Origin: Prevotella sp.
GTDB taxonomy: Bacteria; Bacteroidota; Bacteroidia; Bacteroidales; Bacteroidaceae
Direction of reading: 5' to 3'
Length of the DNA: 55,044 bases
Assembly (NCBI GenBank): GCA_017475265.1
Contig: JAFVFY010000037.1
Coordinates: forward strand, 1-55,044
A program made the position numbers and the translations under genes. The notes beneath the pieces are model-generated. The model saw only the letters and a program-made list of their open reading frames with translations. It ran no database searches and was not told the DNA's origin. Below are positions 15,887-24,872 of the stretch, piece after piece. The number at the start of each line of letters is the position of its first letter. The stretch's first letter is position 1.

Positions 15887-15976
15887 ATTTCATACAGTCA
15901 GGCGGGTATTTCGTACATCAGGCACGAAATTATCCGCATCATTTCTTGCCCGTTTCAAAACAATTCACTATCTTTG
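15887..15976 (+). promoter_or_regulatory. Predicted LytTR operator and promoter of unit 1
   Basis: ATTTCATACA (15887-15896) and ATTTCGTACA (15908-15917) form a direct repeat with a 21-bp period. The -7 box TATCTTTG is at 15969-15976, 51 bp after the second repeat, and no good TTTG -33 box is present, as expected for an activator-dependent promoter. Two near-identical sites precede the units starting at 21378 and 23296, the latter coding a LytTR-domain protein. LytTR regulators bind pairs of short direct repeats two helical turns apart. Confidence 0.7.
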
Positions 15977-15982
15977 CACCGT

Positions 15983-16264
15983 CTTTCCGAATAACGGGGG
16001 GACACATACATACAAAAGGCGTTTTCTGGACGCTTTGGGTTTGACGCTTTGAGAATCTCGCAAATTCAATCTGATTGTCAAAAACAAAGCAACGGGAACG
16101 CCCCTTGGAAGTATAGTATTCGTATGCATTATATAATAATGTGTAAGTTTACATACATCCACGTGGGGCTTTCAGCGTTGCTCGGTTAGACAATCAGGGC
16201 GATGCGAGAGCCTTCAAAGCGTGGACCGGGCACAGAACTGGCTCCACGTTTTTTGTGTGTATGT
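15983..16264 (+). ncRNA. Predicted structured leader RNA of the vWA-PP2C-kinase unit
   Basis: About 340 nt separate the -7 box from the vWA start codon and code no convincing protein. Helices seen: GCTTTGGGTTTGAC (16032-16045) with GTCAAAAACAAAGC (16077-16090), 12 pairs around a 2x2 internal loop; TATGCATTAT (16123-16132) with ATAATGTGTA (16136-16145), 10 pairs; GCGTTGCTC (16175-16183) with GGGCGATGC (16197-16205), 9 pairs; and the terminator at 16219-16254. ACATACATACAAAA (16004-16017) can pair over 14 bases with TTTTGTGTGTATGT (16251-16264), which includes the terminator T-run. A switch between termination and read-through is therefore possible. It does not match RNase P, tmRNA or SRP RNA by eye. 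Confidence 0.55.
16219..16254 (+). terminator. Intrinsic terminator inside the leader, upstream of the vWA gene
   Basis: CGTGGA (16220-16225) pairs with TCCACG (16243-16248), followed directly by six T. It would end the leader as a separate RNA of about 270 nt unless bypassed. Confidence 0.65.
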
Positions 16265-16326
16265 AACAGAACCTATAACTAAGAACATCTGCCAAAGGGG
16301 CTGGGCGGAAAAAAAGATGTAATATT

Positions 16327-17013
16327 ATGGCTGGACAAGGTTTGAAGTACAATGTAGACATTGTGATGTGCATTGATTGCACAGGAAGTATGGGGTCATT
16401 ACTTGACACTGTAAAGACAAAAGCTTTGAGATTCTATCCGGATTTGCGAGAAAGGTGTGACGAAAAGGGAAAGGATATTTCAGAACTTCGTATTCGGGTG
16501 ATAGGTTTTCGTGACTTCTATGCAGACGGGGCGAGAGCCATTGAAGATTCAGGCTTTTTCAATATCCCAGACAAAGAAACTGAGTTCAAGAGTTTCGTCA
16601 ACAAGTTAGAACCAGATGGTGGAGGTGACGAGCCAGAAAATGGGTTGGAAGCACTTGCTATGGCTATAAACTCCGATTGGACAAAAGGAGGTGACAAACG
16701 ACGTCACGTCATCGTTGTATGGTCAGATGCATCTACGCATCCTGTCGGTCTTGAAAAGTGTAAAAACGAATACTATCCTCAGAATATGCCGAAAGACTTT
16801 GATGAACTTACGAACTGGTGGGAAGATGAGCAAGGCGAAGGAAAAACGAAAAAGTCTGCAAAGAGGTTGGTGCTATTTGCACCTGATGCAAGTGCATGGT
16901 CAGAAATTGGTATCAATTGGAACAACACCATACATCATCCGGCCAAAGCAGGGCAGGGACTTGAAGATGTGGATTATGAGACGATTCTTTCAACTATTGT
17001 CAATTCCATTTAA
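16327..17013 (+). CDS. von Willebrand factor A (TerY-like) protein
   Basis: A 228-residue single-domain vWA protein. The metal-ion-dependent adhesion site is complete at the N-terminus: DIVMCIDCTGSMGSLLD, with Asp17, Ser21 and Ser24 positions fitting DxTGS/DxSxS, and a later Asp in VIVVWSDASTHP. No signal peptide or membrane helix, so cytoplasmic. It is followed by a PP2C phosphatase (7 bp) and a Ser/Thr kinase (4 bp); vWA-PP2C-kinase triads of this kind are known from comparative genomics as TerY-P modules linked to stress and tellurite-resistance-type systems. The vWA protein is probably the scaffold or phosphorylated target. Confidence 0.88.
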   Translation: MAGQGLKYNVDIVMCIDCTGSMGSLLDTVKTKALRFYPDLRERCDEKGKDISELRIRVIGFRDFYADGARAIEDSGFFNIPDKETEFKSFVNKLEPDGGGDEPENGLEALAMAINSDWTKGGDKRRHVIVVWSDASTHPVGLEKCKNEYYPQNMPKDFDELTNWWEDEQGEGKTKKSAKRLVLFAPDASAWSEIGINWNNTIHHPAKAGQGLEDVDYETILSTIVNSI

Positions 17014-17020
17014 GAGGAGC

Positions 17021-18010
17021 ATGATTAACGATGGGCTTATCTCTGTCAGTTTTATGACTGAAAAGATCGTGGGTCATGGTGAGGACGCTCCGCCCATACT
17101 TATGGCTAAAGGACAATCGTATGCAGTAGGTGTATTCGATGGTATGGGCGGAGCTGGGGCAGCCACATGCAAGTCTGATTATGGGGAGGGGTTAACGAAA
17201 GCCTATGTGGCTTCGCGAATAACAGCATCTTCAGTTGAACTATATCTTTCGAATCATCTCAACACCGAAGATGTTTCAACTGAAGATTTGAAGCAAATCA
17301 TCATGCAAAGGCTGAAAGAAGAGATACAGAAATATCCTCCTCAGACAAAATCCATTTTAAGGAGCAAGCTGGTTCGTGACTATCCCACAACAATGGCACT
17401 CGTTGTCTTGACGAAAGGCAATGATAATATTTCCATCGATAGCTACTGGGCAGGTGATTCTCATTGTTACCTTTGGACTCTGAAAGGCTTCTTTCAGATA
17501 AGCAAAGATGACTTGGAAGAAAAAAACGACCCGATGGAGAATCTGCATAACGATTCACCCATATCCAATTGTATTTGTGCCGACCGCGATTTTACTATCA
17601 ACCATCAGCATATTGAATTGCCGAAGGAACCTACAATAATCTTGGTGGCTTCAGATGGCTGTTTCGGCTACTATCCTACACCCATGCATTTTGAGTACGT
17701 CCTGAGCAGTACGCTTCAAAAAGCAAATAACGAGAAGGACTGGGAATGTCTGATAAAAGAGAATATTATGAAAGTTACTGGTGATGATTGTTCTTTTTCA
17801 TTAATTGCCATAGGCTTCTCATCGTTCGAGGATTTCAAGAAATCTATGAAAGCATATAAGGTTGAGGGATTCCCTATATTATTGGAACAGGAGGAAACCA
17901 TTGCATATTTTGAGAAGGAACTTGCCAAAGAGAAAGAGATGTACGAGCAGAATGTTACAGCAAGATGGGAAAAATACAAATCGAATTACATGAAGTTCAT
18001 AAACGATTGA
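17021..18010 (+). CDS. PP2C-family Ser/Thr protein phosphatase
   Basis: 329 residues from MINDGLISVSF (17021), chosen because AGGAG lies just upstream and the frame before it overlaps the vWA gene. The metal-binding motif VGVFDGMGGAG (Asp40) and the C-terminal DDCSFSLIAI block, with a further Asp-containing motif (ILVASDGCFGYY), fit a catalytically complete PP2C. The last 50 residues form a charged, probably coiled-coil tail (EKELAKEKEMYEQNVTARWE). It should reverse phosphorylation made by the kinase coded 4 bp downstream. Confidence 0.88.
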   Translation: MINDGLISVSFMTEKIVGHGEDAPPILMAKGQSYAVGVFDGMGGAGAATCKSDYGEGLTKAYVASRITASSVELYLSNHLNTEDVSTEDLKQIIMQRLKEEIQKYPPQTKSILRSKLVRDYPTTMALVVLTKGNDNISIDSYWAGDSHCYLWTLKGFFQISKDDLEEKNDPMENLHNDSPISNCICADRDFTINHQHIELPKEPTIILVASDGCFGYYPTPMHFEYVLSSTLQKANNEKDWECLIKENIMKVTGDDCSFSLIAIGFSSFEDFKKSMKAYKVEGFPILLEQEETIAYFEKELAKEKEMYEQNVTARWEKYKSNYMKFIND

Positions 18011-18014
18011 TAAT

Positions 18015-19076
18015 ATGCCAGAGTACACACCAATGTTAGAAGGAAATACCATCAAGGGCTATAGAATTCTCAAGGATTTTATAGTAGCAGGTGGAATGAG
18101 CAAAATCTCTTTTGCAGAAAAGGGTGGTAAGGAATACTTCATCAAGGAATTTCTTTCCCCAAAATATCCTTTGCCCGAAAGTCCAGGAAGTGAAAAGATA
18201 AAAGCACAGAAACGTAAAGAATGTGAAGTATTTGAGAAACATCATCAGGAATTGAATAGGAAGATTGGCACGAAAGTGTCTCTTGGTGGCAATCTTGTGT
18301 TTGCTGTCGATTTCTTCCGTTGGGGCACATGCTACTATAAGGTAACAGAGAAGATAGACACGACATCACTCTCGTGCGAAGAAATCGCCGAACTACCCTT
18401 CGACAAGATAATCCTTATTGCAAAGTCTGTTTGTCATAGTGTGCGTATTCTTCATGATCTCAATATTGTTCATGGCGACTTGAAACCTGACAATATTCTT
18501 ATAAAGAAAACTTCCATGGGCTATTCTGGTAAACTGATAGACTTTGATGACAGCTATTTTAGTGGCAACCCACCAACTGACCATGAAAGTCTTGTAGGTA
18601 CACCGGAATACTATTCACCTGAACAAGCAGCCTATATCATGGATGAAGAGGAAGAGATAGCTGGTAACACATTAACGTTGAAGTCTGATGTCTTTACACT
18701 TGGAATAATCTTATGTGAATACTTTACAGGCAAGAAACCTGTTCTTCCATCAGATTGTGGTAGCACATGGATATGCGTAAAGAATGGCAATTGTTTCTCT
18801 TATGCCAAAAACATTCCAGTAGGAATAAGGGATCTCATTAATCGAATGCTGAAAAAGAATCCCAGTGAGCGGCCAACCATCAATGAAGTGTTTGAAATCC
18901 TAAAAGGGATGAAGTCTTCTGATATGGAAACGATAGGGCCAACATTTACATCAGATTCACCTTCTAAACCAACAGAAAAGGTGGAATTGCGCAGTACTTT
19001 CAAAAAAGAAGCACCGGTTTCAACAAAGACAGAAACAAAATCTACGCTTCGTAGTAAGACGTGGAATGTTAGTTAG
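18015..19076 (+). CDS. Ser/Thr protein kinase (Hanks type)
   Basis: 353 residues. Kinase landmarks: the glycine loop region VAGGMSKISFAEKGG, Lys44 in EYFIKEF, the catalytic loop HGDLKPDNILI (Asp155, Lys157, Asn160), the metal-binding loop LIDFDDSYF (Asp176), and the activation-segment end TPEYYSPEQA. The usual DFG is DFD, a change that many bacterial and atypical kinases tolerate. There is no transmembrane segment and no PASTA domain; the C-terminal 70 residues are Thr/Ser/Lys-rich and could be an autophosphorylated tail. It forms a tight operon with the PP2C and vWA genes. Confidence 0.88.
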   Translation: MPEYTPMLEGNTIKGYRILKDFIVAGGMSKISFAEKGGKEYFIKEFLSPKYPLPESPGSEKIKAQKRKECEVFEKHHQELNRKIGTKVSLGGNLVFAVDFFRWGTCYYKVTEKIDTTSLSCEEIAELPFDKIILIAKSVCHSVRILHDLNIVHGDLKPDNILIKKTSMGYSGKLIDFDDSYFSGNPPTDHESLVGTPEYYSPEQAAYIMDEEEEIAGNTLTLKSDVFTLGIILCEYFTGKKPVLPSDCGSTWICVKNGNCFSYAKNIPVGIRDLINRMLKKNPSERPTINEVFEILKGMKSSDMETIGPTFTSDSPSKPTEKVELRSTFKKEAPVSTKTETKSTLRSKTWNVS

Positions 19077-19105
19077 CCAATTTTTAATTACTAAGATAAT
19101 AGTCT

Positions 19106-19507
19106 ATGTGTAAATTCAATTCAAATCTAAAAGGGATGGACTTGGCCTTTTTCTATAGTATTCTATATCAGTATGAAAAGGAAAAGGAGCATAAAGGTTA
19201 TGATTATAATAAGATAGACAAACAAATTAAGAAATCAATAACTATAATTAACAGGACACGAACGAAGAAGGTTGTCTTTGTTATGCCGAATAGTCCTAAT
19301 ACTATAGTAATCAATAGCAGAAGTATATGTGTTCCATTGTTAACTCATCTTAGACATGCTTTAGCACATGCATGTATTGAAAAAGTGGGTAATGAATACA
19401 TCATTAATCAGCATTGCAATTCAAAATGCAAGATTTGTGGCCGAGTAAATGTACCACTTTTCAAAAGATTTATAAATGCGATGACGGCAACTAGGACGTT
19501 CAAATAA
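19106..19507 (+). CDS. HEPN-like protein (possible RNase)
   Basis: A 133-residue protein whose helix LLTHLRHALAHACIEK carries an R-x4-H motif (Arg83, His88). This is the catalytic signature of HEPN domains, many of which are metal-independent RNases in toxin-antitoxin and defence systems. Layout resembles the small pEK499_p136-type HEPN proteins. A CKIC pair near the C-terminus could bind metal. The gene is clearly more AT-rich than the flanking genes. Lying between the kinase and the Sel1 protein, it is a plausible effector controlled by the kinase/phosphatase/vWA module. The family call comes from the motif and its surroundings only. Confidence 0.6.
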   Translation: MCKFNSNLKGMDLAFFYSILYQYEKEKEHKGYDYNKIDKQIKKSITIINRTRTKKVVFVMPNSPNTIVINSRSICVPLLTHLRHALAHACIEKVGNEYIINQHCNSKCKICGRVNVPLFKRFINAMTATRTFK

Positions 19508-19526
19508 TTAACGGATTCTTGCTATT

Positions 19527-21029
19527 ATGAGCTGGCTCTGCCCAAAATGTGAGACGGAGAATCCTGATAGGTTGAAGGTTTGCGAGGTGTGCGATTCACC
19601 CCGCGAGATTTCACCTGTAGACGAGTTGAAGGAGAAATTGAAGGAGAAATATAGCGATGCTGCATACAAATCTTTCATTCGATATCACTATGAACTTTTA
19701 GAATCTGCTGACAAAGGATATGCAAGTGCCCAGGCCCAGTACCGAGTGGCTGAATGGTTCAATCGTGGCGGAAGCTCAGGATCATCAAACGACTATATCA
19801 AGATTGCTGTATCATGGTATCAAAAGGCGGCGATGAAAGGGCATATAGATGCACAATTAAAGCTTGCTTCATGCTATGAGGAAGGACGTGGTGTTCCAAA
19901 AATTAAAGAAGAAGCTCTGAAATGGTACAAAAAAGCTGCTAACGTAGGAAATGTAATTGCCTGGAATAAATATCTTAGATTAAAGTATAACAATAAGACA
20001 TACGAAAGTGTAATAAAATACAAATTTGACTTGCTATCGGCAGCAGACAAAGGTGAACGAAACTCTCAATACTTACTTGGTGAATGGTTTAGTAACCATA
20101 AAAGTAAATCAGAATATAGGGAAGAAGCTGTCGTTTGGTATACAAAAGCTGCAAATAATGGGCACGGGGGTGCCATGTATAAATTAGGTAAATGTTATGA
20201 GATAGGATTTGGCGTTTATACAAATCTTGATGAGGCTTTCAAATGGTATAAAAAGTCGGCAAATAGCGGTAACAAGTCTGCCTGCATGATAATTGCACAA
20301 TCATACTTATACGGGTGGCAGAAGAAAAACGTTGATGAAGCTATAAAATGGTATGAGAAGGCTGGAAATGACATAAGCGGGACTGACTTACGCAACATAG
20401 GCCATGCATACGATGTCGGAGATGGTGTCACCCAAAATAAAATCAAGGCAGCTGAATATTACAGGAGGGCAGCAGACAAAGGCGATATGGTGGCACAATA
20501 CCATTTAGGGGTATGCTTTGAAAATGGAGATGGTGTAAACGGAAACAAGAAAACTGCCATATATTGGTATGAGAAAGCAGCTTCGCAAGGCCATGAACAG
20601 GCTAAAGCTGCATTATCAAGGCTGAATAGCAGAGTAGTAAAAATACATTTTAATTCAGATTGGATTTGGTATTTCATCTTTGGAATGATGGAAACCGTTG
20701 GCTTTATATACTACACGAATGAACCACAATATAGTTGGATTCATTACCGTTTAGTGTCCTTATTCACAACAGAATTGTGGGTTGAGACTGGGGCTGTCAT
20801 TTTAATTGCAGGTGCTTGGTTGATGAGTCTGGTTAAAGGAGGACCTTTGTTGACCCTTTTGTACGGATGTTTTGCATTTGGTTTCTATTTGAACCAACCA
20901 GAGAATAGCTGGTTACATCGTGAGATTCTGTCACTAAGCGTTTCTAAACACACAAATGTCGTATTTGAATGGGGAACAACCCTATTAGCTGTAGGAACTT
21001 GGTTGGTTTGTCTAATTGATGATGACTGA
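19527..21029 (+). CDS. Zinc-ribbon, Sel1-repeat, membrane-anchored protein
   Basis: 500 residues in three parts. The N-terminus is a short zinc ribbon of the RanBP2-like type (WLCPKCETENPDRLKVCEVC, residues 3-22). Residues about 55-365 hold roughly eight Sel1-like repeats with the pattern A..WY.KAA..G...A...LG.CY..G.GV, a protein-interaction solenoid. The C-terminal 130 residues contain about four hydrophobic segments (WYFIFGMMETVGFIYY, GAVILIAGAWLMSL and others), so the solenoid is cytoplasmic and membrane-tethered. It is the fifth protein gene of unit 1 and could link the kinase module to the membrane. Confidence 0.85.
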   Translation: MSWLCPKCETENPDRLKVCEVCDSPREISPVDELKEKLKEKYSDAAYKSFIRYHYELLESADKGYASAQAQYRVAEWFNRGGSSGSSNDYIKIAVSWYQKAAMKGHIDAQLKLASCYEEGRGVPKIKEEALKWYKKAANVGNVIAWNKYLRLKYNNKTYESVIKYKFDLLSAADKGERNSQYLLGEWFSNHKSKSEYREEAVVWYTKAANNGHGGAMYKLGKCYEIGFGVYTNLDEAFKWYKKSANSGNKSACMIIAQSYLYGWQKKNVDEAIKWYEKAGNDISGTDLRNIGHAYDVGDGVTQNKIKAAEYYRRAADKGDMVAQYHLGVCFENGDGVNGNKKTAIYWYEKAASQGHEQAKAALSRLNSRVVKIHFNSDWIWYFIFGMMETVGFIYYTNEPQYSWIHYRLVSLFTTELWVETGAVILIAGAWLMSLVKGGPLLTLLYGCFAFGFYLNQPENSWLHREILSLSVSKHTNVVFEWGTTLLAVGTWLVCLIDDD

Positions 21030-21097
21030 CAAATGACATAAGTAAAATACAGACAAGTAAATACAAGGTAATGACTTCGAAAAATAAGGATATAATA

Positions 21098-21271
21098 ATG
21101 AACAAGAGATCAACTCCCATCCCCGGCCTCAGTTTCTCACTCAAACGGGCACTGGGCATCACTCAGACAAAACAGAAGATTGCCAAAGCGACGGGCATCC
21201 CGACCTCGAAGGCAGGACTAGAACGGAAAATCGGCAGCGTGATTGTGAAAATGTTGGTGGGGAAAAAGTAA
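21098..21271 (+). CDS. Small basic conserved protein, copy 1
   Basis: 57 residues from MNKRSTPIPGLSFS (21098); a longer in-frame start at 21071 is possible. The core PIPGLSFSLKRALGITQ, then KQKIAKATGIPTSKAGLERK, is nearly identical to the ORF at 23013-23180. Over the 50 shared codons the copies differ at 15 sense codons: 11 changes are silent and only 4 alter the residue. This shows both copies were kept for their protein. The protein is small, basic and without a membrane segment. It ends 6 bp before the LytTR-type operator of the next unit, so it is the last gene of unit 1. Similar short ORFs are common in Prevotella; function unknown. Confidence 0.7.
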   Translation: MNKRSTPIPGLSFSLKRALGITQTKQKIAKATGIPTSKAGLERKIGSVIVKMLVGKK

Positions 21272-21277
21272 GTCTTC

Positions 21278-21355
21278 ATTTCGTACAACAATCAAGGTGT
21301 TTTGTACAATTATAGAATAAAAGACGTGGCGTTTCGAAAAAGAATAGTACTTTTG
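21278..21355 (+). promoter_or_regulatory. Predicted LytTR operator and promoter of unit 2
   Basis: ATTTCGTACA (21278-21287) and GTTTTGTACA (21299-21308) form a 21-bp-period direct repeat. The -7 box TACTTTTG is at 21348-21355, 39 bp after the second repeat, and there is no TTTG -33 box at the right distance. Same layout as 23187-23264. Confidence 0.7.
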
Positions 21356-21377
21356 CAGAGACAAATTAAATATCGAA

Positions 21378-21884
21378 ATGAAAAACAAGTGGAAGGACAA
21401 ACTAACAATTACTGCTCTTGCTGTTATTGGTGTTGTACTCATATGGAATCATCTGCCATATTACTATAGTAACGAAAGGACAGTTGATTACATTACCAAT
21501 CATGCAGAAGAGCATTCCAGACGTATGTGTGCTGGCTATGTCGTAATGGCAATGTGGCATGGCAGATGCCCGATTGGGCCTGTTGTATTGCCTGCTTACG
21601 CCTACAGTAAGATCCTGCCGCAGATAGGGTTTGAAGAAGTTCCTGCAGAAGGATACAATCCTCGGAAAGGAGACATATCGGTTCTGCCTCAAAACAGCCG
21701 ACATGTTTTCGGGCATATCGCCGTATATGACGGCAAGCAATGGGTGTCTGACTTCAAGCAGAAATCATTATTCCCCTCTAAGGCATATCAGGAAAATGGC
21801 AAATACCAAGTGTTTTCGTGCTTCGGATGGCTGGCACTGGAAGCACGTGTGGATTTCGCCAATCGACTGGTACGAATTGGCTGA
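21378..21884 (+). CDS. Membrane-anchored CHAP/NlpC-like cysteine amidase
   Basis: 168 residues. An N-terminal hydrophobic segment (LTITALAVIGVVLIW) anchors or exports the protein. The rest matches a compact papain-like peptidase: Cys51 in RRMCAGYVVMAMW, and His113 in FGHIAVYDGKQW, preceded by the typical PRKGDISVLP strand. Enzymes of this fold cut peptidoglycan peptides. Here it is the first gene of LytTR-operator unit 2 and shares it with an alpha/beta hydrolase, which supports a role in wall remodelling or in attack on neighbours. No immunity gene is obvious. Confidence 0.7.
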   Translation: MKNKWKDKLTITALAVIGVVLIWNHLPYYYSNERTVDYITNHAEEHSRRMCAGYVVMAMWHGRCPIGPVVLPAYAYSKILPQIGFEEVPAEGYNPRKGDISVLPQNSRHVFGHIAVYDGKQWVSDFKQKSLFPSKAYQENGKYQVFSCFGWLALEARVDFANRLVRIG

Positions 21885-21924
21885 AGTGGGAATCAAAGGT
21901 TGGAAAACTATTTCTTTTTTGCAG

Positions 21925-23010
21925 ATGAAGAAGATAATAACTGTGATTCTAATATTGTGCGCTATCATGGTCTTTGCCACATGGCAATATAGACTATTAT
22001 GCCTTTTACTGGCTGTGCTGTTAAACCGTAGTTGGATTAAACAGAGGTGGCCGAAGGCGTGTCCGTTTGTCACGTGGGGACTTGTGATTGCTATCTTTAT
22101 TGCCATTCCGAACTATTTCCAGCATGGGCGGTCGCAACTGATATATCTAAATGACAAGGGTGAGCGTATTGGTACGCCGTTGCCAGTATATGCCATAAAC
22201 GCATTGTTGCCAGAGGAGGAATTGATGAATGTAGGGATGAAACTGACGGCTGTTTTGCCGCCAGCCTCATTGAGTCCTGTCTTCAAAAATCTGGGCATTC
22301 GGTTTATCCGTGATGCGCAGCACGATTTCTGGAACGGTATGGCGCTAACGTTTTACGCCCCTTATAACAGATTGTCATTGCAAGGCAGCAATCCTGGCTC
22401 ATTTGCCATTGCACAGGCCATGAACGAAACTTTGGGAACGGACTATGACGGCATTTATGTTACAAAACCGATAAGCTACGATGACTCCAAAGCTTATCCT
22501 GTGGTGTTCTTCGCGCATGGCTTCTTGGGCAGTTGGGAGTTGTATCAAGGTCTGCTGTCTCGATTGGAGGATTGTCTGGTAGTGAGCATCGGGACAAAAG
22601 ACCTTTCGGGTATCTTTGGCTATAACGACATTCAAAGAATCTTCACTAAGTATTTGCCTTATTTAGAGCAAGAGGGATTCCATATAGACAAAAAACAACT
22701 TCACCTAATGGGGCTGAGCAATGGCGGAACAGCATCCAATGTGGGTTTGCGTAGCTTCTCAAGCAAGCTCAAGACCATCACCTATATCTCTACTTCCTGC
22801 GATGTAACCAAGAAAGTGAAAACGAAAGTCATCATGATTGGAGGAGGAAAAGATGCCAGTTCTTCTGGTCTGCCAAATGTTGCACAACGTCTGCGCAGCT
22901 GCGGGACAAATGTCGCTCTGCTATTCGACCAGAATGATAATCACTACATATTGGTACATCAAACAGAGGAAATCTTTAACTTTCTAAACAAAGAAATAAA
23001 AGATGTGTGA
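21925..23010 (+). CDS. Alpha/beta hydrolase with N-terminal membrane segments
   Basis: 361 residues from MKKIITVILILCAI (21925); the upstream open frame overlaps the CHAP gene and is ignored. Residues 1-65 include two or three hydrophobic helices, so the catalytic domain is outside or membrane-bound. The fold is shown by YPVVFFAHGFLGSWELY (oxyanion region, HGF), the nucleophile elbow GLSNGGTAS (Ser), and a final His near NDNHYILVH. Substrate unknown; an esterase or lipase acting on the envelope is plausible. The small ORF at 23013 begins 2 bp after its stop. Confidence 0.75.
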   Translation: MKKIITVILILCAIMVFATWQYRLLCLLLAVLLNRSWIKQRWPKACPFVTWGLVIAIFIAIPNYFQHGRSQLIYLNDKGERIGTPLPVYAINALLPEEELMNVGMKLTAVLPPASLSPVFKNLGIRFIRDAQHDFWNGMALTFYAPYNRLSLQGSNPGSFAIAQAMNETLGTDYDGIYVTKPISYDDSKAYPVVFFAHGFLGSWELYQGLLSRLEDCLVVSIGTKDLSGIFGYNDIQRIFTKYLPYLEQEGFHIDKKQLHLMGLSNGGTASNVGLRSFSSKLKTITYISTSCDVTKKVKTKVIMIGGGKDASSSGLPNVAQRLRSCGTNVALLFDQNDNHYILVHQTEEIFNFLNKEIKDV

Positions 23011-23012
23011 AC

Positions 23013-23180
23013 ATGAAAGCATATCCCATCCCCGGCCTCAGTTTCTCACTCAAACGGGCGTTGGGTATCACTCAAGCAAAGCAGAAGATTGCCAAAGCAA
23101 CGGGCATCCCGACCTCGAAGGCAGGACTGGAGCGGAAAATCGGCAGTATGATTCTGAAAACGCTGGTGGGGAAGAAGTGA
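23013..23180 (+). CDS. Small basic conserved protein, copy 2
   Basis: 55 residues, MKAYPIPGLSFSLKRALG at the start and LERKIGSMILKTLVGKK at the end. It is the second copy of the ORF at 21098-21271, with mostly silent differences. It starts 2 bp after the hydrolase stop codon and ends 6 bp before the LytTR-type operator of unit 3. Small ORF and operator were therefore duplicated together, as a block of about 200 bp. It is too short for most gene finders. Confidence 0.7.
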   Translation: MKAYPIPGLSFSLKRALGITQAKQKIAKATGIPTSKAGLERKIGSMILKTLVGKK

Positions 23181-23186
23181 GTCTTC

Positions 23187-23264
23187 ATTTCGTACATCAA
23201 TTGGGGTATTTCATACAGACATAGAAGAAAATGTAGGTAGTCTCGAAAAGTTTATGTAATTTTG
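23187..23264 (+). promoter_or_regulatory. Predicted LytTR operator and promoter of unit 3 (autoregulation)
   Basis: ATTTCGTACA (23187-23196) and ATTTCATACA (23208-23217), period 21 bp. The -7 box TAATTTTG at 23257-23264 follows 39 bp after the second repeat, exactly as in unit 2. The first gene of this unit codes the LytTR regulator itself, so autoregulation is likely. Confidence 0.7.
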
Positions 23265-23295
23265 CAGCGTTCAAAGACTACATGATGAGAAGGCT

Positions 23296-23679
23296 ATGAG
23301 TAGCAGGGGGCTGATTATATCAAACTCTAACGAGTTGGTGAGGGTGAAGCCGGAGCGGGTAGTTTACGTGGAGTCGGACGGTAACTACTCAACGATGGTG
23401 CTGCACGACAAGACGGAGCATGTGTTCACGATGAATCTTGCCCATTGCCAGGAGCTGATAGAGCGTCAGTTAGGCAAGGAGGCAGAGACGTTCATCCGCA
23501 TAGGCAAGCAACTGATTATCAACCGGGAGTATATCTTCAAGATTAACGTGAACAAACAGACGCTGGTGATGTCGGACATGGCACTCAACCAGGCCTTTAC
23601 CTTGCAGGCATCGAAAGAAGCACTTAAGCAGCTAAAGGCATACATGGAATCAAAGGCAGGAAAGGAGGGAAAACTATGA
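23296..23679 (+). CDS. Stand-alone LytTR DNA-binding regulator
   Basis: 127 residues that are nearly all one LytTR domain: residues 12-110 include VKPERVVYVESDGNYSTMVL, EAETFIRIGKQLIINREYIF and the closing strand TLVMSDMALNQAFTL. There is no receiver domain and no membrane segment, so it is not a standard two-component regulator. Its stop overlaps the start of the transpeptidase gene (ATGA). In LytTR regulatory systems of Gram-positives a LytTR protein is held inactive by a co-transcribed membrane protein; the coupled membrane-anchored transpeptidase could do that here (inference). It is the best candidate to bind the three direct-repeat sites at 15887, 21278 and 23187. Confidence 0.85.
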   Translation: MSSRGLIISNSNELVRVKPERVVYVESDGNYSTMVLHDKTEHVFTMNLAHCQELIERQLGKEAETFIRIGKQLIINREYIFKINVNKQTLVMSDMALNQAFTLQASKEALKQLKAYMESKAGKEGKL

Positions 23680-24872
23680 TGGAGGACGAACTGCAAGTTT
23701 TAGGGAAACAGCAAGAAATGAGTAAGCGCAAGAAATGGACCATTGGCGTTTTTTCCGTAATTGCAGCTGTAATGTTTGTTTTTATCGGTTTCTTTATCCA
23801 TAAGAATTTAGTCTCTCATTCCCCTGAATGGGAGGAGAAGGAGGGTACGACCATCATACCTGCTTTGCAAGAAGTTGTTGACTCGCTGCTGAATGACAAG
23901 CTAACAGAGATGTCAGGCTTGCAAGGACAGGTGATTGTAATGGAAGTAAATACTGGAGCCATTAGGACTATGGTCGGCTTTGAACGCAGGTTCGACGGAA
24001 AATTCCAGCATTGCTCAAACTTTGCTTTTCAACAGGAGCCTGGCTCAACTATGAAGACAGCAGCACTACTGGCTTTGTTGGAAACAGGTGAGGTTAAGTT
24101 GACGGATGAGGTCGATACGGGAGAAGGTGTGTGGGCTCTTGACGATGAGGACATCATAAAAGATCATAACTGGCACCGTGGCGGCTATGGGAAGATTACC
24201 TTGGAACGCGCTTTGGAGATAAGTTCCAATATCGGCATCAGTAAAACCATCCGCAAGGTGTTCGATGGCAAGGAGCAACGCTATTTTGAACTGCTTGACA
24301 AGATGAGCCTCGGACAGCCGGACAGTATTGAAGGCATAGCAGAACTGAAGCCAATGGTGTATAGCTCGCCAAAAGATAGCACCTGGGCAAGCAGACAACT
24401 GCTTTGGAACTCCATCGGTTATGAAAGGAAGATGGCTCCTATCCAGACGCTTACTTTCTACAACGCTATTGCCAATGATGGCAAGATGGTGAAGCCAATG
24501 CTCAGACCAGGCAATACTGAGGTGATAAACGAGCAAATTGCCAGTAAAGAGAACATTGCCAAGATACAGCAGGCGTTGTACAATGTGGTGTGTCGCGGAT
24601 TAGGAAAGAAGGCAGGAAGCGAAATCATTCCTGTAGCAGGAAAGACAGGAACAACTCAGGTGAACAACTGCGAATGGCTAACTGATGAAGGCCTCGATGA
24701 GTATCATATATCTTTTTGTGGCTATTTCCCTGCCATGTCTCCAAAGTATAGCATCATTGTCAGCATGAACAAGCTGGGAATTCCCGCCAGTGGCGGTTCT
24801 ATGGCAGGTCCAGTATTTCGCGATATCATGGAGTGGATGGTTGCGCATGGGATGGTTGATTCCTGCCATTGA
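23676..24872 (+). CDS. Membrane-anchored penicillin-binding transpeptidase
   Basis: 398 residues: a short cytoplasmic N-terminus, one transmembrane helix (IGVFSVIAAVMFVFIGFFI, residues 23-41), then a transpeptidase domain with all three active-site motifs: SxxK at Ser124 (EPGSTMKT), SxN (ISSNIGIS) and KTG (VAGKTGTTQ). It lacks the N-terminal pedestal of FtsI/PBP2-type enzymes, so it is short for a class B PBP. It overlaps the LytTR gene by 4 bp, which ties cell-wall synthesis to the regulator. It could be a stress-induced or beta-lactam-insensitive transpeptidase, or a sensor that reads wall state. Confidence 0.85.
   Translation: MMEDELQVLGKQQEMSKRKKWTIGVFSVIAAVMFVFIGFFIHKNLVSHSPEWEEKEGTTIIPALQEVVDSLLNDKLTEMSGLQGQVIVMEVNTGAIRTMVGFERRFDGKFQHCSNFAFQQEPGSTMKTAALLALLETGEVKLTDEVDTGEGVWALDDEDIIKDHNWHRGGYGKITLERALEISSNIGISKTIRKVFDGKEQRYFELLDKMSLGQPDSIEGIAELKPMVYSSPKDSTWASRQLLWNSIGYERKMAPIQTLTFYNAIANDGKMVKPMLRPGNTEVINEQIASKENIAKIQQALYNVVCRGLGKKAGSEIIPVAGKTGTTQVNNCEWLTDEGLDEYHISFCGYFPAMSPKYSIIVSMNKLGIPASGGSMAGPVFRDIMEWMVAHGMVDSCH

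Follow-up and report, generated by a model that had tools for sequence, protein, structure and literature searches.

In streptococci, LytTR Regulatory Systems (HdrRM/BrsRM) consist of a LytTR regulator and a downstream membrane inhibitor, and their positive autoregulation is driven by direct repeats located immediately 5' of the -35 element (excerpts of PMC6193735). Here we describe a related arrangement in a stretch of 55,044 nucleotides from Prevotella sp. (assembly GCA_017475265.1, contig JAFVFY010000037.1, positions 1 to 55,044), called the window below. A LytTR-type direct repeat precedes three units of the window, the third of which encodes a LytTR protein of 127 amino acids and a protein related to penicillin-binding proteins (PBPs). 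We consider it fairly probable that the LytTR protein and its PBP-fold partner are a membrane-coupled pair which activates four operons, one of them gated a second time by an RNA leader. As far as the excerpts describe them, the LytTR Regulatory Systems resemble this locus in three respects: the regulator lacks a receiver domain, the gene of a transmembrane protein is adjacent downstream (13 of 13 orthologs), and direct repeats stand just 5' of its own promoter (12 of 13), where they are phased to the -7 box. Unlike the membrane inhibitors of HdrRM/BrsRM in that account, the partner is a single-pass protein of the PBP fold, and the two are likened by gene arrangement, not by partner sequence. 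The host, a Prevotella relative, and the targets, wall enzymes together with a phospho-signalling operon, differ as well. By analogy, the LytTR-PBP pair may work like a LytTR Regulatory System, including inhibition by the partner, and would then be a new variant of this known kind of system.

The operator of Escherichia coli YpdB is a direct repeat of GGCATTTCAT, and LytTR regulators in general use repeats of 9-11 nt with spacers of 11-13 nt (excerpts of PMC4847170). The repeat of the window, ATTTCRTACA-N11-ATTTCRTACA, shares the ATTTCAT core with the YpdB site quoted there but differs in the bases flanking the core. YpdB is moreover a two-component response regulator, whereas the window protein has no receiver. 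A membrane sensor with a penicillin-binding fold, paired with a DNA-binding protein, is also known from BlaR1/MecR1, which carry a metalloprotease domain and act with a BlaI/MecI-type repressor. The window likewise has a PBP-fold membrane protein beside a DNA-binding regulator; unlike in BlaR1/MecR1, Pfam shows only Transpeptidase and no metalloprotease in the partner, and only LytTR in the regulator. Literature searches yielded no paper that we recognised as dealing with the operator, the LytTR-PBP pair or the RNA.

Operator sites and the LytTR regulator

A preliminary description of this DNA had noticed the same direct repeat at 15887, 21278 and 23187 with a period of 21 bp, and both observations were borne out by a pattern scan. 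Operator 1 (15887..15917, plus strand) has 0 mismatches, operator 2 (21278..21308, plus strand) has 2, its second half reading GTTTTGTACA, and operator 3, the putative autoregulatory site (23187..23217, plus strand), has 0. At up to 3 mismatches exactly these three matches are present in the window, compared to 0.03 expected from 100 shuffles, none of which contained three. Each site is followed by a TAnnTTTG box, as described before: TATCTTTG (15969..15976, plus strand) lies 51 bp past operator 1, TACTTTTG (21348-21355, plus strand) 39 bp past operator 2 and TAATTTTG (23257-23264, plus strand) 39 bp past operator 3. The statement that none of the three promoters has a good TTTG at -33 is true as written; promoter 1 has TTG at the place typical of its class, and promoters 2 and 3 have neither TTTG nor TTG there. 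In the genome of the window (4.75 Mb), six operator matches were found at up to 3 mismatches and two for the reversed pattern. The whole-genome scan gave one convincing site outside the window (C74:23422-23452, minus strand, 1 mismatch), located 76 bp upstream of the gene for a 208-amino-acid membrane protein, which is followed by an M23 peptidase gene. Two further matches with 3 mismatches each (L005, L006) were judged to be chance.

A small open reading frame (ORF) of 55-57 amino acids occurs in two copies (PIPGLSFSLKRALGIT..GIPTSKAGLERKIGS..LVGKK), the ends of which abut operators 2 and 3. Copy 1 (57 amino acids, PIPGLSFSLKRALGIT..; 21098..21271, plus strand) is directly 5' of operator 2, copy 2 (55 amino acids; 23013..23180, plus strand) directly 5' of operator 3, and neither has a Pfam match. 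The C74 site is preceded by a degenerate remnant of this ORF and the site in locus L157 by a short similar tail.

Scanning related genomes for the 31-bp pattern had been proposed as a check in the preliminary description, as had conservation of the site upstream of orthologous units. At up to 1 mismatch, the pattern matched 64 times, in 45 of the 299 genus genomes, and its reversed control not once. A homolog of the window LytTR is present in 36 of these 45 genomes; its overall frequency is 97 of 299 (Fisher p 1.1e-12). Such a homolog is no more than 10 kb away from 33 of the 64 sites. A wider-family sample had a site at the same threshold in 16 of 151 genomes (control 0), at least one of which, G352, is a coding look-alike. 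Among 74 distinct sites from the fetched loci (up to 2 mismatches), 60 have a TAnnTTTG box at 39-41 bp (51 sites) or 50-51 bp (9 sites), a phasing seen at 0.4% of random places, and the gap between the two distance classes is about one helical turn. The phased sites also share spacer bases, A at position 14 (54/60) and G at position 19 (43/60), and the base following the second half is A in 47/60. These comparisons give good support to ATTTCRTACA-N11-ATTTCRTACA as a conserved LytTR-type operator of the genus, with binding predicted. In five loci (L044, L045, L047, L100 and L101) a terminator-like inverted repeat, CCCGCC..GGCGGG or a variant of it, encloses the second operator half in its loop, so that the operator looks fused with a terminator upstream.

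The third unit does encode a LytTR protein, as had been stated (23296..23679, plus strand; Pfam LytTR 4.6e-10). LytTR, at residues 13-117, is the only Pfam domain of this receiver-less protein. Copies with at least 76% identity were found in 13 genomes of the genus sample, that of the window included, and in 12 of these 13 orthologs an operator (up to 3 mismatches) stands 5' of the LytTR gene, in agreement with the autoregulation suggested earlier. L100 and L101 have kinase genes 5' of LytTR, for which no operator of their own was detected. The best named relative of the window PBP-like gene is found in RUG195 (L131, Prevotellaceae), where LytTR (93% identity) and PBP-like protein (58%) have the same arrangement and two perfect operator sites are present. 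An autoregulated LytTR regulon appears well supported by this conservation, with binding and the direction of control predicted.

Several observations weigh against this reading. The genome of the window encodes five LytTR proteins, four besides the one described here, and the genus sample contains 123 further LytTR matches of 23-52% identity, most of them in frames shorter than 190 amino acids. Because of these, the strongest doubt concerns which LytTR protein reads which site, and some operator sites could be read by a paralog. Other LytTR homologs of the genus have the operator nearby too, so that it is not private to the regulon in the window; of the single regulon claimed before, the shared LytTR-type operator stands. 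In L091 no operator was found in the 219 nt upstream of LytTR, and nine of the 45 site genomes are without a detected LytTR homolog. In two of these genomes (G048, G174), and hence for 2 of the 64 genus matches, the site resembles conserved coding sequence. At the C74 site the -7 box is poor (TAAAATCG, 39 bp past the site), and 14 of the 74 distinct sites lack a phased TAnnTTTG box. At up to 2 mismatches, 34 operator matches were listed in 60 genomes and 5 for the reversed control; because the control also matches there, the stricter count at up to 1 mismatch was relied on. Finally, the fetched loci held 82 distinct sites at up to 2 mismatches, eight of which were excluded before the phasing count. 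These eight share TTCAC-N-AC-YTC and were read as a conserved coding stretch rather than operators. A conserved, apparently coding ATTTCGTTCACNAC.. (for example in L012, L024 and L030), with 1-2 mismatches to the operator, inflates the loose counts.

Taken further, this doubt would make the operator a signal used throughout the genus by many LytTR proteins, the four sites being read by several paralogs under different stimuli without a single regulon. The paralogs counted above would suit such a view, as would the same operator ahead of caspase/FHA/PP2C/kinase operons beside a LytTR-FHA pair. We regard it as unlikely, since in the genome of the window sites with up to 2 mismatches are confined to contigs C56 and C74, and the four other LytTR genes all lie elsewhere. 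In one sister locus (L106 9743-19901) the order is LytTR, an FHA protein with hydrophobic segments, operator, unknown gene, caspase, FHA, PP2C and kinases. LytTR-FHA genes with an operator ahead of unknown, FHA, PP2C and kinase genes occur likewise in L052, L053, L168 and L169, and a caspase-like gene is part of the clusters in L052, L053 and L106 (Pfam on L106 only). These clusters apparently form a phospho-signalling system that shares this operator but has a LytTR protein to itself.

The probable penicillin-binding-type partner

The gene following LytTR (23676..24872, plus strand) overlaps it by 4 bp and encodes a membrane-anchored protein similar to penicillin-binding-type transpeptidases (Pfam Transpeptidase 4e-43) with an intact SxxK motif. 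A PBP-like protein is encoded directly after LytTR in each of the 13 orthologous loci, and hydropathy predicts a single N-terminal membrane segment in each of them. The active site motifs are far less constant. SxxK is intact in 4/13 partners (window STMK, L091 SLMK, L096 SVMK, L100 SLMK) and altered in 9/13, which have lost the serine, the lysine or both. Serine and lysine are changed in L092 (TLMH), in L095, L098 and L099 (ALTM) and in L101 (ALMH), the lysine alone in L090 (SVME), L093 (SIML), L094 (SLMM) and L097 (SVMQ). The KTG and SxN motifs are likewise variable among the orthologs. The partner in RUG195 has an intact SxxK (SLTK). Among 20 PBP relatives from public genomes a LytTR gene was present in L131 only, judged from the DNA around each locus, of which almost none upstream was covered for L133. 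The motif PGSTFK was read in 17 of the 19 relatives without a LytTR gene found nearby, and not read in L132 and L139.

The preliminary description had counted the transpeptidase among the cell-wall enzymes put out by the regulon, a claim which does not hold up well in this comparison. The PBP-like protein is probably the membrane partner of the regulator, often a pseudoenzyme, rather than an output for wall synthesis. Because the fold is retained while SxxK is lost in nine of the 13 partners, a role as sensor or inhibitor suggests itself; a partner whose fold is kept while catalysis is dispensable fits these alignments. A pseudo-PBP as a partner in gene control would, if true, be an unusual use of the PBP fold. 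The window partner itself retains SxxK, SxN and KTG; being catalytically intact by motif, it may also be an enzyme, which speaks against a purely regulatory partner. An output enzyme for wall synthesis or repair that merely shares the operon, with LytTR controlled otherwise, for example through phosphorylation by the neighbouring kinase, would be in keeping with these motifs and with the kinase and PP2C genes among the controlled genes. It is an unlikely explanation, however, for a pair that has stayed together while most partners lost their catalytic residues.

The structured RNA leader

Promoter 1 is followed by a rod-like structured RNA leader (15998..16274, plus strand; covariance model R1, 290.8 bits). 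Folding of 15985-16285 gave -122.4 kcal/mol compared to -74.6 for shuffled sequences (z -10.3), and 0/100 shuffles were as good. Alignment A1 was built from 30 of 44 RNA loci, 14 truncated or near-duplicate loci being excluded, and its consensus structure has 46 pairs in an RNA of about 280 nt. In this alignment 98.2% of cells are paired (87.4 in shuffled alignments), 19/46 pairs show double, compensatory changes (12.3 in shuffled) and covariation scores 0.381 (0.164 in shuffled), a value which 0/500 shuffles reach; the consensus was derived from the same alignment, which biases these values in its favour. As for further pair types, one measure was matched by 24/500 shuffles. Slid structures score far below the consensus structure. 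Covariation extends to the outer stem, whose matched arms pair better on average than any of 5000 permutations, 1/30 arms being empty and adding only a constant. One-sided changes in pairs lead mostly to G-U wobbles, which fits an RNA.

A simple intrinsic terminator as the sole role of the 3' end was rejected, as column 286, in the CGUGG arm, covaries with rod column 53. The CCACG arm opposite CGUGG is nearly invariant, and the RNA may switch between the two folds. Like structured leaders in Rfam, this is a conserved 5' RNA with covariation; unlike them, it has no Rfam match: the window copy was negative at E<=1 (Rfam 15), and so was the RNA region of six other loci at E<=0.1.

DNA similar to the leader is found in 91/299 genus genomes, and the covariance model detected the RNA in 99/151 genomes and 23/30 genera of the family (probably Bacteroidaceae). 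The genome of the window has 11 copies, the weakest at 32 bits; other family genomes have up to 11 (11 candidates scored). Wide presence in the phylum was rejected on 2/247 genomes, that of the window included (7 candidates scored per genome, so that weak copies may be missed), and so was a home on plasmids or phages, the window copy having no match in either collection. In excerpts, PMC8040213 describes thousands of candidate RNAs from human microbiomes, some of the Bacteroidetes ones near TPR or radical-SAM genes, and pieces of the leader may be among its supplementary candidates.

Position was counted for 69/86 model matches, after exclusion of reverse-strand echoes, locus duplicates and weak, partial or second matches. 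An ATG frame of at least 100 amino acids begins within 200 nt downstream of 54/67 copies, 41/54 of them at 39-65 nt, and a divergently read frame lies on the other side of 4/67; a TAnnTTTG box is present 15-60 nt upstream of 50/69. Judged from these positions, the RNA would mostly stand as a 5' leader ahead of operons that encode kinases, Hsp70, DISARM-type proteins and others. Its cargo in the genome of the window includes Hsp70 (L282) and kinases (L281). Further cargo comprises DISARM-type DrmD with a methyltransferase (L214), a kinase-AAA protein together with Hsp70 (L205), tubulin-like proteins (L300, weakly in L203) and a DNA methylase (L288). The RNA also leads LytTR-FHA operons in L048, L052 and L053. 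In L214, L221, L227 and L228 the first two proteins behind the RNA cluster together; those of L214 are a DISARM-type DrmD helicase and a type III-like methyltransferase.

An operator stands ahead of a full-length RNA in the window, L092, L154, L165, L206 and L131, and ahead of partial or divergent matches in L093, L094 and L153. Since few copies carry the operator (5/33 RNA loci listed, at up to 2 mismatches), the RNA is apparently for the most part independent of LytTR, both controls being combined in the window operon. The structured leader proposed before as a regulon member thus proved to be a conserved structured RNA, whose family mostly lacks the operator. A second leader type is common to L094 (12152-12303), L153 (8230-8375) and L155. 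It matches the RNA model weakly at positions 50-244 in L094 and L153, with no match in L155, and perhaps represents a divergent branch within the RNA family.

We tentatively suggest that the RNA represents a new cis-regulatory class of the family, which would serve long operons for kinases, chaperones and defence-type functions as a processive antiterminator or as a leader with two states. In the regulon of the window it would be coupled in series to a wall sensor of a new kind, namely a LytTR protein held by a membrane-bound, often catalytically dead PBP homolog. A trans-acting or mobile hairpin element would also account for the rod-like fold and for the many copies with unrelated cargo, and random places in the loci have a comparable ATG frame in 37% of draws, mostly inside genes. 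Such an element is nevertheless doubtful given the downstream frames, the rarity of divergent ones, the promoter boxes upstream and the preference for G-U wobbles.

The proposed circuit and its genes

In the circuit that we favour, the 127-amino-acid LytTR protein and its single-pass PBP-fold partner would form a membrane-coupled regulatory pair. At rest the partner would keep LytTR inactive; on sensing a wall change or a wall-active compound it would release LytTR, which is predicted to bind the operator just upstream of -33, at the sites phased to the -7 box, and to activate transcription. Its targets would be its own operon and at least three more, namely the amidase-like/hydrolase unit, the C74 membrane protein/M23 unit and the RNA-leader/vWA/PP2C/kinase/Sel1 unit, and the conserved, structured leader may gate the last of these a second time in cis, at elongation or translation. 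Repression of these promoters by LytTR, although the direction is unreadable from sequence alone, is very unlikely for sites which lie upstream of -33 at a fixed phase to -7 and not over the start site, and whose 39-41 bp class often has no -33 element (TTG in 28/51 compared to 9/9 in the 50-51 bp class). If true, the circuit offers a testable path from signal to output in poorly studied gut bacteria, comprising regulator, candidate wall sensor, operator and four operons. The model of operator and phased box would let LytTR regulons be predicted across the genus, and the leader would be a widespread regulatory RNA ahead of DISARM-type, chaperone and kinase operons.

The first unit begins with a vWA-domain protein of 228 amino acids (16327..17013, plus strand; Pfam VWA_4 5e-9), a PP2C-type phosphatase (17021..18010, plus strand; Pfam PP2C_2 4e-9; start at an ATG chosen in frame, the scan having used 16991-18010) and a Ser/Thr protein kinase of 353 amino acids (18015..19076, plus strand; Pfam Pkinase 2.4e-26). 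Genes for vWA, PP2C and Ser/Thr kinase in a row recall the TerY-P phosphorylation triad, which is composed of these three. Membership in TerY-P was rejected, as PADLOC gave 0 matches for vWA and PP2C and the kinase matches other kinase models (presence of TerY-P models in PADLOC not confirmed). The next gene encodes a protein of 133 amino acids (19106..19507, plus strand), HEPN-like at most. HEPN RNases are marked by an R-x4-6-H motif, and this protein contains LRHALAH; its BA_2335-like Pfam match is below cut-off (E 0.005, 17.3 bits, cut-off 27), and the assignment as the possible RNase proposed earlier is weak. The unit ends with a Zn-ribbon/Sel1-repeat protein (19527..21029, plus strand; Pfam Sel1 1.4e-54) with C-terminal hydrophobic segments by hydropathy.

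The second unit encodes a membrane-anchored amidase-like protein of 168 amino acids (21378..21884, plus strand), with no Pfam match and with PDB relative 4hz9 (E 6e-12), which is listed as a putative cytoplasmic protein and which we take to be a Tae3-type amidase. It is followed by a membrane protein with a hydrolase-like domain (21925..23010, plus strand; Peptidase_S9 9.6e-4, below cut-off; transmembrane; start at an ATG chosen in frame). In the fourth unit, on C74, the 208-amino-acid protein has two hydrophobic segments and the M23 peptidase (Pfam Peptidase_M23 1.8e-19) one. This unit, outside the window, would strengthen the cell-wall theme of the regulon and lends support to the earlier proposal that phospho-signalling is joined with cell-wall enzymes.

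The cargo of the operator varies between genomes. In G172 (L092) the order is operator, RNA, vWA, PP2C, kinase, kinase, DUF4407, a protein of 194 amino acids, operator, LytTR and PBP, and the proteins of L092 gave no blastp match at 1e-4 to the vWA, PP2C and kinase proteins of the window. WG repeats are found in L096. In RUG195 (L131 3386-9283) operator and RNA leader are followed by two Cys-rich peptides with twin-arginine-like leaders, and the same run includes genes for a radical-SAM protein and an FHA/CD225 protein; judged from its gene content, the run is possibly a peptide natural-product cluster.

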